Positions 12,340 to 28,474 of a DNA stretch of 28,474 bases are shown here, piece by piece. The notes under the pieces were generated by a model that was not told the origin of the DNA, searched no databases, and worked only from the letters and a program-made list of their open reading frames with translations. The first letter of the stretch is position 1; every line of letters begins with the position of its first letter. Position numbers and translations under genes: made by a program. Source of the stretch: a virus; the IMG/VR virus record IMGVR_UViG_3300037963_002386, positions 1 to 28,474 of that record; one strand, 5' to 3'.

Positions 12340-12412
12340 TATTATTAAATATTATATAAACCACCACAAACGCAGCTAATATCCATGACACTATTAATAT
12401 ATCAGGGATCAC
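12332..12412 (-). CDS. 26-residue membrane microprotein with GTG start
   Basis: A GTG at 12410-12412 overlaps the sigma factor stop (GTGA), and the frame ends in a TAA that overlaps the ATGGC of the next gene. The product has one strongly hydrophobic segment (Ile-Leu-Ile-Val-Ser-Trp, then Ala-Ala-Phe-Val-Val-Val-Tyr-Ile-Ile) and a polar Asn-Asn-Asn-Gly end. Overlap on both sides and a clean membrane helix argue for translation; the short length and non-ATG start argue against certainty. Confidence 0.5.
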   Translation of the reverse strand: MIPDILIVSWILAAFVVVYIIFNNNG

Positions 12413-13011
12413 TTTATTAACTCAAAATCTTTATATAAATAATCTAAATAGTCCTCCCCTATATTTTCACGTAATCGTTTTTTACAATTTTTTAAAGTAT
12501 TAAATACTGAGGTTAAACTAATCTTTGTCTCTTTAGATAAACACCGCATGCTTTTTTCATTAGCTATATATGTATCAAATAACATGCGATCATACCAATG
12601 CCACTTTTTTGTTTCTGCGTGTATTTTATCTATTATAATTTCAAAAGCTTTTTCATTTTCTACACTTTCTTGTAATGGTACATCAAACCCTTCACCTAAT
12701 TTTATAATATACTGATTTCTTTTACGGGATTTTAAATGATTCATCGAGACTCTTTTTAGAGTAATCCACATATAAATCATGTTTACCTGGTTATTTTGAT
12801 CTAAAATTCTTTGACTTATAGGAAGATCCTTATACTTGCTGTTTACTCTCTTATCATTATCCTTATGCTTTTTTGATCCTAACTGTGATAATTCAATATA
12901 AGCATCCTGTACTATATCCTCTATATAAATATTCTGCTGATTTTCGGGGAATGATCGGACTATTTTTAAATAATCATTATGCTTTTGCGATACTATTTCA
13001 AACCATTCCAT
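12409..13011 (-). CDS. Sigma-70 family-like factor, probable late-gene regulator
   Basis: A 200-residue protein with the layout of a small group 4-like sigma factor. Region 2 is suggested by Ile-Glu-Asp-Ile-Val-Gln-Asp-Ala-Tyr-Ile-Glu-Leu near 30-41 and Tyr-Met-Trp-Ile-Thr-Leu-Lys-Arg-Val-Ser near 80-95. Region 4 is suggested by Ser-Met-Arg-Cys-Leu-Ser-Lys-Glu-Thr-Lys-Ile-Ser-Leu-Thr-Ser-Val and a basic closing helix with Cys-Lys-Lys-Arg-Leu-Arg. The start is ATG at 13011. It is the last gene before the packaging and structural genes, a natural place for a factor that turns on late transcription. No phage RNA polymerase was found, so it would act on host core enzyme. Substrate promoters are unknown. 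Confidence 0.65.
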   Translation of the reverse strand: MEWFEIVSQKHNDYLKIVRSFPENQQNIYIEDIVQDAYIELSQLGSKKHKDNDKRVNSKYKDLPISQRILDQNNQVNMIYMWITLKRVSMNHLKSRKRNQYIIKLGEGFDVPLQESVENEKAFEIIIDKIHAETKKWHWYDRMLFDTYIANEKSMRCLSKETKISLTSVFNTLKNCKKRLRENIGEDYLDYLYKDFELIK

Positions 13012-13041: not shown

Positions 13042-13269
13042 TTATTCAAACTGTTCGTTAATTCTCATTTGCCGCTCAATTCTATACTCTAAAAACTGTC
13101 TATTTAAAATAAGCTCTGATCCTGCTAACGTGTTTGTATATAAAATGCCTTCTGTTGAATCTAAGCACTTTGAATTATACGCATACTTACGAATAAATAG
13201 CTCTCCTTTCACCTTGTATTCTACAACATACAATATATCTTCATTTATATTTCTAAAGTAATCATTCAT
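13042..13269 (-). CDS. Hypothetical 75-residue protein
   Basis: A small, mostly beta then helical protein beginning Met-Asn-Asp-Tyr-Phe-Arg-Asn. It contains Tyr-Val-Val-Glu-Tyr-Lys-Val-Lys-Gly and ends in a charged helix. I do not recognise it. Its start overlaps the end of the GIY-YIG/MazG gene by eight bases, so it belongs to the same transcript. The 30 bases between it and the sigma gene are AT-only in large part. Confidence 0.5.
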   Translation of the reverse strand: MNDYFRNINEDILYVVEYKVKGELFIRKYAYNSKCLDSTEGILYTNTLAGSELILNRQFLEYRIERQMRINEQFE

Positions 13270-14020
13270 TTTTTACAAAAGTACCGTTAAGCATTTTGCC
13301 TTTACGCTGGCAAATTACGTTATATGCTGACTCAATACAATCCTCAATATTTAATTTTTCTAACTTTGCTAAGTTAGTTAATACAACTACGATGTCTCCA
13401 ATAGCATCTATTATTTCAGCTCGATCTTTTTTAAGAAGTGCTTTTGCTAACTCACCAGACTCTTCTTGTAATTTAACAAACTGTGTTTTGCTATCACCTT
13501 TTTCATAAATACCTCTATCCTGCGCCCACGATCGAATTTTGTTATATATATTTTCATCCTCACCAAACGAAAAAACTTTATAAGCGTTATATAAAGCTTT
13601 ACAATATAAAAAATAAGTGCCCTTTACTTTAAAAGACTCCTGCAAATTATCATAAGCCCACTTACAAATGCCATCATTATTCATTTCAATAACACCTAAT
13701 TTTGGTAAATCAAAAACCATACCTTTAAAATAATCTTTATTTATAGCTTTTTTGTTCACTTTAAAGCTTACTGTTTGATCTGTGACGTGTGTTGTTTTCA
13801 TGTTTTTAGTTTTTATTGTTATGTAATTATTATTATCTGTTTTATATTTATATTTTAATTGTTCTTTAAATTCATATAGTGACGCTTTCTTTATACTATT
13901 TGTAGTATATAAAACCGTATAGTCTTTTTTATTAAAACCCTGCTGAATTTCTACGCGCTTTTTTAAGTCTGTTGTACATCCTATTTTTTTTATACCTGGT
14001 ATATGGTAAATATAATACAT
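13262..14020 (-). CDS. GIY-YIG-like N-terminus fused to MazG-like NTP pyrophosphohydrolase
   Basis: A 252-residue fusion. Residues 1-60 look like a GIY-YIG nuclease core: Tyr-Tyr-Ile-Tyr at 2-5, Lys-Ile-Gly-Cys-Thr-Thr-Asp-Leu-Lys-Lys-Arg at 12-22 and a candidate metal Glu near 50 in Leu-Tyr-Glu-Phe-Lys-Glu. Residues 178-220 carry the all-alpha NTP pyrophosphohydrolase signature: Glu186, Glu187 and Glu190, then Glu202-x-x-Asp205 and Asp209. Residues 100-160 are unassigned. MazG-type enzymes cut dNTPs or (p)ppGpp to monophosphates; T4 dCTPase belongs to the same superfamily. Standing next to a thymidylate synthase homologue with a dCMP-type residue, this enzyme could supply dCMP or remove dCTP, which is inference. 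The GIY-YIG part is short and may be inactive. Confidence 0.65.
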   Translation of the reverse strand: MYYIYHIPGIKKIGCTTDLKKRVEIQQGFNKKDYTVLYTTNSIKKASLYEFKEQLKYKYKTDNNNYITIKTKNMKTTHVTDQTVSFKVNKKAINKDYFKGMVFDLPKLGVIEMNNDGICKWAYDNLQESFKVKGTYFLYCKALYNAYKVFSFGEDENIYNKIRSWAQDRGIYEKGDSKTQFVKLQEESGELAKALLKKDRAEIIDAIGDIVVVLTNLAKLEKLNIEDCIESAYNVICQRKGKMLNGTFVKNE

Positions 14021-14021
14021 C

Positions 14022-14780
14022 TTACTTAATTAAATCTGCTTTAATATACTCTCCATGTTTATAATTACATAAAGAGTAATCTTTATAACTTCCTTTTATT
14101 TTTGGTAAAGCATACATTTTTGACATAAGATATTTGTTAACTGCAGGTATATGACTTTTATAAATATGTGCGTCCGCCAAATTTAAGCCTAATGTAAGAG
14201 GGTTAAGACCTAATTTTTTTGCTATTGTTATTAAAAATAAAGCCCCCACAATTATATCATAAGGTAAGCCTAAAAAAAGATCGGAGCTGCGAAAAGTCAT
14301 TACCATATTTAAATTATCGTTTTGCCTTACAAAATTAAATTGTGTATAACAGCACGGCAAACTTTGATCTTTTAAGTCAGTAGGATTCCATAGCGTTATT
14401 ACTGCACGTCGTGAATTGTTTTTAATTTCTTTTATAACGTATTCTATTTGATTAAAAATACCATTAAATGAGCTTATTTGATAGCCATAAACTTTACCTA
14501 ACTTTCCTTTAATAGCGAAGTCATCCCACCAATAAATATTATTATCGTGTAAAAACTTTAAATCTGTTTTACCCTCATATATCCACTTAAACTCGGCTAA
14601 TGCTTTTTTAAAAAAAATCTTTTTACCTGTTACTATTGGGAAACCTTTACTTAAATCTATATTAATGCTTTTATTAAAAAGCTTATAAGTATCAACACCT
14701 GTTCTATTTTTACAAATAACACCCTCACTTATACATTCTTTAAGTAAATTTTTATAGGTGTTTTCAAAACCAGGACTCAT
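14022..14780 (-). CDS. Thymidylate synthase family protein, possible dCMP hydroxymethylase
   Basis: A 252-residue ThyA homologue with nearly all family landmarks: Arg26 in Asn-Arg-Thr-Gly, Glu63, Tyr98-Gly, Arg124-Arg125, the nucleophile Cys143 in Leu-Pro-Cys, Arg164-Ser-Ser-Asp, His205 and Tyr207, and a C-terminus alignable with the usual closing residues. The Asn that selects dUMP (Asn177 in E. coli, within Gly-Leu-Pro-Phe-Asn-Ile) is Asp175 here, in Gly-Leu-Pro-Tyr-Asp-Ile. In T4 dCMP hydroxymethylase the equivalent position is Asp179, and Asn-to-Asp is known to switch the enzyme toward dCMP. The His after the Cys is also replaced by Cys. The enzyme may therefore act on dCMP. It overlaps the upstream small gene (ATGA). 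Confidence 0.85.
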   Translation of the reverse strand: MSPGFENTYKNLLKECISEGVICKNRTGVDTYKLFNKSINIDLSKGFPIVTGKKIFFKKALAEFKWIYEGKTDLKFLHDNNIYWWDDFAIKGKLGKVYGYQISSFNGIFNQIEYVIKEIKNNSRRAVITLWNPTDLKDQSLPCCYTQFNFVRQNDNLNMVMTFRSSDLFLGLPYDIIVGALFLITIAKKLGLNPLTLGLNLADAHIYKSHIPAVNKYLMSKMYALPKIKGSYKDYSLCNYKHGEYIKADLIK

Positions 14781-15043
14781 GGCAGATCGTTTTTAAAGTC
14801 ATTAAGAGCTGCTATATACCCTACACAATCAAGCATTGTATCTCTTTTAGTATTAAAGCTCATCCTTGATATTTTTAAAGCTATCATGCACTTATAAAAA
14901 TCTTCTGTTGTTATTTCTTTATTGCATAGTTCTGATGCAATTTTAGCGGCTTTAGTCATTGATTCTTTAAAGCTGCCATATTGTCGTTCTTTTTCTTCAG
15001 ATCTATTAAATATTATTTCGTCTGCTTCTTGTAAAATGTTCAT
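14777..15043 (-). CDS. Small DUF6378-like protein
   Basis: An 88-residue helical protein with Arg-Gln-Tyr-Gly-Ser-Phe near 20-25 and, toward the C-terminus, Ile-Ala-Leu-Lys-Ile-Ser-Arg followed by Asp-Thr-Met-Leu-Asp-Cys-Val-Gly-Tyr-Ile-Ala. This fits a common small phage protein family (DUF6378-like) found near nucleotide-metabolism genes. The Asp-x-x-x-Asp pattern on one helix recalls all-alpha NTP pyrophosphohydrolases, but I would not claim activity. Its stop overlaps the ATG of the thymidylate synthase homologue. Confidence 0.6.
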   Translation of the reverse strand: MNILQEADEIIFNRSEEKERQYGSFKESMTKAAKIASELCNKEITTEDFYKCMIALKISRMSFNTKRDTMLDCVGYIAALNDFKNDLP

Positions 15044-19082: not shown

Positions 19083-19508
19083 TTAAATTCCTGTAGGTAG
19101 ATCTTTATTCCAATGTGATATTTTATTATTATTATTATTTATATCTATATTATTATTTATATTATCTTTATGCTTCAGCCTTGCTTTAGCCTTGCTTAAG
19201 CCCCCCTTCCTGCCCGCGATACTTAACTTTAAAGACTTTTCAAGAATTTCTTTTTTTTCTTCGTCAAGGAATTTAATACTTATTTTATCTCTTTTTTTAA
19301 CTAAAAACTTATTTTGTATTAGATAATCAATCTTCTGATCTTCCTTTGTTCGCTTTTTTATATCTTGAATAGTAAGACAATTTTTTCTATTCCAATACTC
19401 ACAACATACTTTTATAAATAATCCCTGTATTTCATAGCTCTCATAAGCTATATTTCCTGTCAGCCATTCGCTAACGTTAAATCTAAAAAAAGGTAGTTCT
19501 TTTGCCAT
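19083..19508 (-). CDS. Replisome-organizer-like protein (DUF4373/Lin1244-type N-terminus)
   Basis: A 141-residue protein. The first 60 residues, Phe-Phe-Arg-Phe-Asn-Val-Ser-Glu-Trp-Leu, Gly-Leu-Phe-Ile-Lys-Val-Cys-Cys-Glu-Tyr-Trp and Ile-Lys-Lys-Arg-Thr, resemble the winged-helix N-terminus of phage replication initiators such as Lin1244/DUF4373. After a basic Gly-Arg-Lys-Gly-Gly segment the C-terminus is mostly Asn and Ile from an ATT repeat, so the usual C-terminal domain is missing or reduced. It overlaps the DnaA-like gene by one base. Origin binding is likely but inferred. Confidence 0.6.
   Translation of the reverse strand: MAKELPFFRFNVSEWLTGNIAYESYEIQGLFIKVCCEYWNRKNCLTIQDIKKRTKEDQKIDYLIQNKFLVKKRDKISIKFLDEEKKEILEKSLKLSIAGRKGGLSKAKARLKHKDNINNNIDINNNNNKISHWNKDLPTGI
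19121..19165. repeat. ATT microsatellite in the replication protein gene
   Basis: Runs of ATT (attattattatt) interrupted by atatctatatt encode an Asn/Ile-rich tail of the replisome-organizer-like protein on the minus strand. Slippage here would change tail length in frame. Confidence 0.8.
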
Positions 19509-19843
19509 TATTTTAATTTGTTAATTAATACATCTTGTCCTGCTAAAATTTTATACATAGAGCTCATTAAATGATTTCTTTGAATTACACCCATAGGAAA
19601 GTCTCTGCGGATCTCTTCAGTAATCTCTAAAAATAATAAATCATCTTTAAAATAGTCATAGTTACGTAATCCATGAATTACCGTGGCATGATCTCTATCA
19701 AACAACCTGCCAATTCTTTGCAACGAGTAACCATAGGTTTGGCGCAAATAAGCAAATAAATAAAATCTTTTATATACGATTTCTCTTTTACGATTGTTTG
19801 TATCTAAGTTTTGTCTTTGAATATACTCTTTTATTTCTGTCAT
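19508..19843 (-). CDS. DnaA domain IV-like DNA-binding protein
   Basis: A 111-residue protein. Residues 35-65 match the DNA-binding domain IV of DnaA: Tyr-Ser-Leu-Gln-Arg-Ile-Gly-Arg-Leu-Phe, then Asp-Arg-Asp-His-Ala-Thr-Val-Ile-His-Gly at 49-58, the DnaA signature. No AAA+ part is present. It could bind DnaA boxes in the phage origin, or compete with host DnaA. It is followed by the replication organizer and ATPase, so it belongs to the initiation cassette. The fold assignment is firm; the role is inferred. Confidence 0.78.
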   Translation of the reverse strand: MTEIKEYIQRQNLDTNNRKREIVYKRFYLFAYLRQTYGYSLQRIGRLFDRDHATVIHGLRNYDYFKDDLLFLEITEEIRRDFPMGVIQRNHLMSSMYKILAGQDVLINKLK

Positions 19844-28226: not shown

Positions 28227-28474
28227 TTATGAATTACTTATTCTTTCCATTACTCGATCTAAAGTAGACTTCGCTCTGTTTTGTGCGTATTTAACTTTAA
28301 TACCTGTTGATGTATTTTCAGGGTTATGAGTAATTGGTTTTGCAGCCGCTAAATCTTCTGATGTTAGCTCTACTTCTTTTTCTTCTTTTTCTTTTTCTTC
28401 GTTTTGTACATCTGTTGATAGTGTTAAATTTGATTTAAACTCAGCAAGCTTAGAATCAATTAATTTTCCAATAA
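28227..28474 (-). CDS. Scaffold-like head protein (3' part; start at 520 across the junction)
   Basis: This is the 3' end of the gene that starts at 520. From the junction (28375) the frame runs Val-Glu-Leu-Thr-Ser-Glu-Asp-Leu-Ala-Ala, then Thr-His-Asn-Pro-Glu-Asn, and ends Asp-Arg-Val-Met-Glu-Arg-Ile-Ser-Asn-Ser at a TAA (28227-28229). Bases 28376-28473 duplicate 1-98. The capsid ATG follows after 25 bases. Confidence 0.75.
   Translation of the reverse strand, partial: IGKLIDSKLAEFKSNLTLSTDVQNEEKEKEEKEVELTSEDLAAAKPITHNPENTSTGIKVKYAQNRAKSTLDRVMERISNS
28376..28473. repeat. Terminal direct repeat, right copy
   Basis: Identical to 1-98. See the left copy for interpretation. Confidence 0.93.

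Follow-up and report, generated by a model that had tools for sequence, protein, structure and literature searches.

Cytosine methylation at the level of the nucleotide is a known but rare means by which phages evade the DNA-cutting enzymes of their hosts. Ordinary ThyA and MazG enzymes are common in phages, where they serve pool control; in T4, a dCTPase of the MazG superfamily partners the dCMP hydroxymethylase. Replacement of all cytosine by 5-methylcytosine was described for phage Xp12 (PMC9206674, PMC7653180), and such fully substituted DNA is suspected in a few of its relatives. DNA of the Xp12-group phage AXL1 withstands most restriction enzymes with G or C in their sites; its authors, who took the AXL1 ThyA for a thymidylate enzyme, counted the mechanism among the unknowns (PMC9206674). 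According to literature quoted in PMC8670742, exchange of Asn for Asp at position 177 (N177D/N229D) moves ThyA from dUMP to dCMP and yields 5-methyl-dCMP. MetaGPA contigs selected experimentally for modified cytosine mostly encode Asp177, with position 147 as the other top residue (PMC8670742). Hydroxymethylases carry a different signature, comprising Asp or Glu three residues ahead of the catalytic Cys, Ser or Thr two residues before Tyr and the lack of a C-terminal tail, and D145N by itself abolishes hydroxymethylation in T4 (PMC6400193). Finally, MazZ of the Z-DNA phages (S-2L) shows that a MazG enzyme can supply a base-modification enzyme with its substrate (PMC8342488).

A conserved three-gene cassette

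The window, the whole viral stretch of 28,474 nucleotides analysed here, contains three minus-strand genes at positions 13262–15043, arranged head to tail in the order DUF6378, ThyA, MazG. The original prediction had placed a possible cytosine-modification cassette at this location, and gene calls together with Pfam profiles bear out the three genes. The first (14777–15043, minus strand) encodes an 88-aa protein that is predicted to be helical and conserved in the family; its match to PF19905 (E=4.3e-16) confirms the small DUF6378-like protein that had been proposed. It overlaps by 4 nt the gene for the ThyA-family enzyme, a predicted dCMP 5-methylase of 252 aa (14022–14780, minus strand; PF00303, Thymidylat_synt, E=1.2e-62), which is separated by 1 nt from the gene for a MazG-type pyrophosphohydrolase, also of 252 aa (13262–14020, minus strand; Pfam MazG E=3.3e-6, PRA-PH E=4.7e-6; MazG in PHROG). 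In a first scan, the gene directly upstream of ThyA was DUF6378 in 50 loci; the gene directly downstream was MazG in 50, and in 5 more an antisense ORF had been called there instead. Homologues of MazG are present in 110 and those of DUF6378 in 91 of 112 family loci, which represent about 89 distinct contigs (some fetched twice) and include loci cut by contig ends. ThyA and MazG form a unit that is conserved across the relatives.

The MazG domain occupies residues 156–252 of its protein and retains the metal-binding residues of the EExxE...D motif, conserved in the family as EExGEL...DAxGD; the enzyme could make dCMP from dCTP. The protein had been described as a GIY-YIG/MazG fusion, of which the MazG half stands on its Pfam matches. 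The GIY-YIG-like N-terminal part gave matches below the cut-off (T5orf172, E=0.013; MUG113, E=0.011–0.049), and about a third of the relatives' genes (19/51) encode MazG alone (~100 aa), the rest carrying the GIY-YIG-like part. A profile comparison of the window-family MazG with an Xp12-type MazG set, both as shallow alignments, was not significant.

The model of the DUF6378 protein reached a pLDDT of 65 and had no PDB match. Comparison by hhalign with MazG-like proteins was not significant, nor was the comparison for an Nmad1 (DUF1599) relationship, made with the DUF1599-like C-terminus of Xp12-type MazG, itself recognized through weak DUF1599 matches (E=0.006–0.1). PHROGs (PHROG 474/1167) and mycobacteriophage RefSeq records give DUF6378 homologues the label phosphofructokinase; no sequence basis was seen for applying this label to an 88-aa domain, and it was set aside.

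The ThyA active site

Alignment of the window ThyA to E. coli ThyA showed that R21, E58, W80, Y94, R126, R127, C146, R166, S167, D169, H207 and Y209 are kept (E. coli numbering), in agreement with the earlier claim that the catalytic Cys, Arg and His survive. The changes are W83 to Phe, P145 to Cys, H147 to Tyr, Q151 to Asn, C168 to Ser, F176 to Tyr and N177 to Asp. The catalytic residue, Cys144 (E. coli Cys146; codon at 14349–14351, minus strand), is the second Cys of a PCC motif and is followed by Tyr145 at the place of E. coli His147. The replacement of Asn177, the base-selecting residue, by Asp175 had been foreseen and holds up in the alignment, in the GAT codon at 14256–14258 (minus strand) and in its invariance within the family; the same alignment verifies that T4 dCMP hydroxymethylase has Asp at this place. 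The AlphaFold2 model (pLDDT 92) has only thymidylate synthases as its best PDB matches. By its profile, its catalytic Cys, Arg, His, Asp and Glu residues and its fold, the enzyme is a member of the thymidylate synthase/pyrimidine hydroxymethylase superfamily (PF00303).

Asp177 is invariant in an 18-row alignment of family members that are 54–70% identical to the window ThyA. It is present in all 67 distinct viral family sequences, a set fetched partly with motifs covering the neighborhood of the Asp, and the first scan, which did not use that stretch, had the same outcome; position 147 is Tyr or Phe throughout. Asp177 occurs in none of 76 bacterial ThyA sequences, all of which have Asn177 and His147, in a motif-fetched set in which Pseudomonas and Saccharibacteria are overrepresented. 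Asn177 and His147 are also found in the nearest ordinary phage enzymes, those of SIOphi, NF-1, Correa, Shagrat, B40-8, BUCTxx99 and ct76p945. Because of its invariance in the family alignment and its distribution between viral and bacterial sequences, Asp175 is not a chance substitution. By these residues the window enzyme departs from the ordinary state at both positions that mark the MetaGPA contigs, 177 and 147, and it is an Asp-type ThyA that presumably selects dCMP. The assumption that this swap favors dCMP, which was part of the original prediction, agrees with the literature quoted in PMC8670742.

The phylogeny that had been proposed as a check, against ordinary ThyA and dCMP hydroxymethylases, does not put the window enzyme among the Asn-type sequences. 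A single branch with support 98/96 sets off all of the latter in a tree of 51 rows, and the window clade groups with the enzyme of AP013540 (99/99); the same split is recovered at 96/93 when T4-type sequences are left out together with every diagnostic column. The tree is unrooted and contains long branches; the Asp may have arisen once or several times. Asp177, Tyr147 and the tree argue against an ordinary dUMP-specific ThyA.

The comparison with hydroxymethylases concerns the remainder of the active site. T4 gp42 belongs to the same superfamily and has Asp at 177, but it lies far off on the tree and lacks a tail; like the enzyme of Microbacterium phage Pikmin, it has Asp at −3 from the catalytic Cys and Ser two before Tyr. 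The window enzyme differs in all three features: Leu141 (E. coli Leu143; 14358–14360, minus strand) stands three residues ahead of the catalytic Cys, where hydroxymethylases have Asp or Glu, Lys stands two before Tyr, and residues 240–252 (YKHGEYIKADLIK; 14025–14063, minus strand) match the closing tail of thymidylate synthase. This tail includes IKADLIK, and several relatives end in IKAPLAI, compared with IKAPVAI in E. coli. The residue at −3, the residue two before Tyr and the tail argue against identity as a T4-type hydroxymethylase. Features of a methylase, by contrast, are retained: Leu143, Trp80, the tail and the thymidylate-synthase fold. Because the hydroxymethylase signature is absent, methylation is favored, and T4 is the wrong model and the Xp12 group a better one. 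Of the two products originally proposed, 5-hydroxymethyl-dCMP becomes the less likely, and 5-methyl-dCMP is the better prediction from these residues.

The genome and its host

A longest-match search identified a 98-bp terminal direct repeat at 1–98 and 28376–28473, the two copies being identical and the last base of the window (28,474) differing. Since the first 98 bases recur at the window end, the window probably represents an entire genome of ~28.4 kb whose assembled ends overlap. Its GC content is 32%. No homologues of the AP013540 kinase and deaminase, the AXL1 DHFR and deaminase, the kinase part of RDJL3 or T4 beta-glucosyltransferase were detected in the window or in the 112 family loci, and Pfam scans of most window proteins (the remaining few are mostly from the structural region) revealed no polymerase, nucleotide kinase or relevant transferase. 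These searches of an apparently complete genome uphold the earlier statement that no dNMP kinase or glucosyltransferase is present. Host kinases, folate enzymes (DHFR) and polymerase are assumed to be needed because no such homologues were found in the window.

The window terminase is closest (59%) to those of Nonlabens phages P12024S/L, isolates from seawater that infect Flavobacteriaceae. A marine flavobacterial host is likely, and the window phage is small and probably marine. A prophage-based host search yielded no close relative on any bacterial genome contig. By homologue search, all three cassette genes are absent from P12024S, which encodes a DNA methyltransferase (L230, 32699–33376); the two phages may thus protect their DNA by different means.

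Elsewhere in the window, a small protein encoded at 19508–19843 contains a DnaA C-terminal DNA-binding domain (E=2e-11) and is perhaps a replication initiator. The gene at 12409–13011 is placed as the sigma-70-like gene of P12024S is, upstream of the terminase genes, and matches no clear Pfam family. GATC occurs at 1.5 times the Markov expectation (122 sites) and GGCC, CCGG, GCGC, CATG and TCGA at about 0.7 times, counts that come from one genome and involve too few sites to be weighed for avoidance.

A model for the cassette and its relation to known systems

The genes, their residues, the conservation of these residues, the linkage and the tree, all observed directly, have led us to propose a model whereby 5-methyl-dCMP is made before replication and the phage DNA is built with 5-methylcytosine, a reading that we consider probable. 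MazG would cut dCTP to dCMP, so that the normal competitor is depleted and ThyA receives its substrate. The Asp-type ThyA, as its residues and relatives suggest, would then methylate dCMP with methylene-tetrahydrofolate by normal thymidylate-synthase chemistry, including hydride transfer. Host CMP/dCMP and NDP kinases would raise 5-methyl-dCMP to 5-methyl-dCTP, which a polymerase, apparently not encoded by the phage, would incorporate in place of some or all cytosine. The resulting 5-methylcytosine would block many restriction enzymes. The DUF6378 protein is taken to belong to the same unit.

Three other explanations were weighed. The enzyme might instead be a dCMP hydroxymethylase that gives rise to DNA with 5-hydroxymethylcytosine, perhaps decorated further. 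Asp177 is common to the window ThyA and T4 gp42, and the T4 enzyme likewise has its MazG-superfamily partner. In phage Thanatos, too, a dCTP pyrophosphatase accompanies an enzyme of similar kind (PMC12838424). However, none of the three hydroxymethylase features is present, in a setting where D145N alone ends hydroxymethylation by T4 (PMC6400193). No T4 beta-glucosyltransferase homologue was found, and Pfam scans of window proteins revealed no other sugar or carbamoyl transferase, leaving this explanation unlikely. A plain thymidylate synthase that uses dUMP and tolerates Asp, within a cassette that balances dNTP pools, would be in keeping with the ThyA-like tail, the other catalytic residues and the frequent carriage of ordinary ThyA and MazG by phages for that purpose. 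We regard it as the most improbable of the explanations, as the loss extends to His147, the Asp is invariant across the 67 distinct sequences, the tree keeps the enzyme apart from the Asn-type sequences also when the diagnostic columns are removed, and the N177D/N229D swaps favor dCMP in the work quoted by PMC8670742.

A dCMP methylase could also serve a thymidine detour, in which 5-methyl-dCMP is deaminated to dTMP and feeds dTTP for an AT-rich genome whose DNA remains unmodified. The 32% GC of the window would suit such a role, and both AP013540 and the Xp12 group have a dCMP deaminase next to a relative of the ThyA. No homologues of these deaminases were found in the window or in the 112 family loci, however, so deamination would fall to the host. 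The same deaminase also occurs in the Xp12 group, one of whose phages does carry 5-methylcytosine; we consider the detour quite unlikely. The preferred reading, synthesis of 5-methyl-dCMP for incorporation into DNA, can be extended to a more ambitious proposal: that widespread small aquatic phages, kin to phages of marine Flavobacteriaceae, replace cytosine by 5-methylcytosine using three linked genes and no phage kinase or DNA polymerase, and that DUF6378 is a new required factor that, for example, steers MazG to dCTP and away from 5-methyl-dCTP. We put this forward tentatively, as a possibility on the doubtful side.

If the model is correct, a trait known from Xp12 would exist in a separate, common aquatic lineage with genomes of ~28–31 kb, on the strength of three genes and host kinases. 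These phages would withstand many restriction enzymes of their hosts, and methylation-dependent enzymes may attack them. A compact and testable gene set would become available for producing 5-methylcytosine DNA in a laboratory strain, DUF6378 would gain a function, and it would serve as a warning that phage genes named thymidylate synthase can be cytosine methylases.

Several described systems resemble the window cassette. The S-2L Z-cluster (datZ, mazZ, purZ) likewise has a MazG-type enzyme beside a base-making enzyme whose substrate it supplies, but it acts in the purine pathway with an unrelated synthetic enzyme. The Asp177 ThyA of the MetaGPA contigs (PMC8670742) shares the changed residue at 147 and co-occurs with PRA-PH/MazG-type domains; those contigs, unlike the window contig, were picked experimentally for modified DNA. 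The closest annotated enzyme, 55% identical, is that of AP013540 (Votkovvirus S28C10, a marine autographivirus), with the same Asp, Leu143 and Tyr147 and a pyrophosphohydrolase in the same operon. No DUF6378 adjoins it, and the AP013540 operon (L058, 19164–21185) is a fuller version of the cassette, running from the pyrophosphohydrolase through a thymidylate-kinase-like protein and the Asp-type ThyA to a dCMP deaminase; the kinase-like protein and the deaminase are additions relative to the window.

The same Asp and the RSSD and PYD motifs are found in ThyA of the Xp12-group phages DLP4, AXL1, PaMx28, Mallos and Donnerlittchen, Asp177 thus having been read in relatives of Xp12 rather than in the Xp12 sequence, and also in ThyA of Roseobacter, Rhodobacter and Achromobacter phages. 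All of these phages have MazG beside or near ThyA, and dCMP deaminase and DHFR usually come next. In Roseobacter phage RDJL3 (L087, 1892–2986) and Rhodobacter phage RcRudolph (L086, 1729–2853), the MazG protein beside the Asp-type ThyA has an additional P-loop part that resembles a dNMP kinase (in RcRudolph a weak match to DNMK, E=0.02); the extended protein possibly unites a pyrophosphatase and a kinase of the same pathway. The RcRudolph ThyA (L086, 2857–3747) is annotated as ThyX-like, but it aligns with ThyA and carries ThyA motifs.

The Xp12 group is, by analogy, the closest functional parallel. It shares with the window cassette Asp177, the loss of His147, Phe83 and a MazG gene directly beside ThyA, its MazG protein being extended by a small helical domain (DUF1599/Nmad1-like, weak). 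The Xp12-group enzymes have Asn143/Pro147 and another C-terminus, with dCMP deaminase and DHFR as usual, perhaps not defining, neighbors. In the window, the enzyme combines Leu143/Tyr147 with a ThyA-like tail, DUF6378 is encoded by a gene of its own, and no deaminase or DHFR gene adjoins. Given these differences at 143, 147 and the C-terminus, the resemblance of the two types covers the Asp but not the active site as a whole. Asp177 offers an explanation for the resistance of AXL1 DNA to restriction, and the window cassette is, as judged from its genes and residues, probably a stripped-down, widespread form of a known type of dCMP-methylating system.
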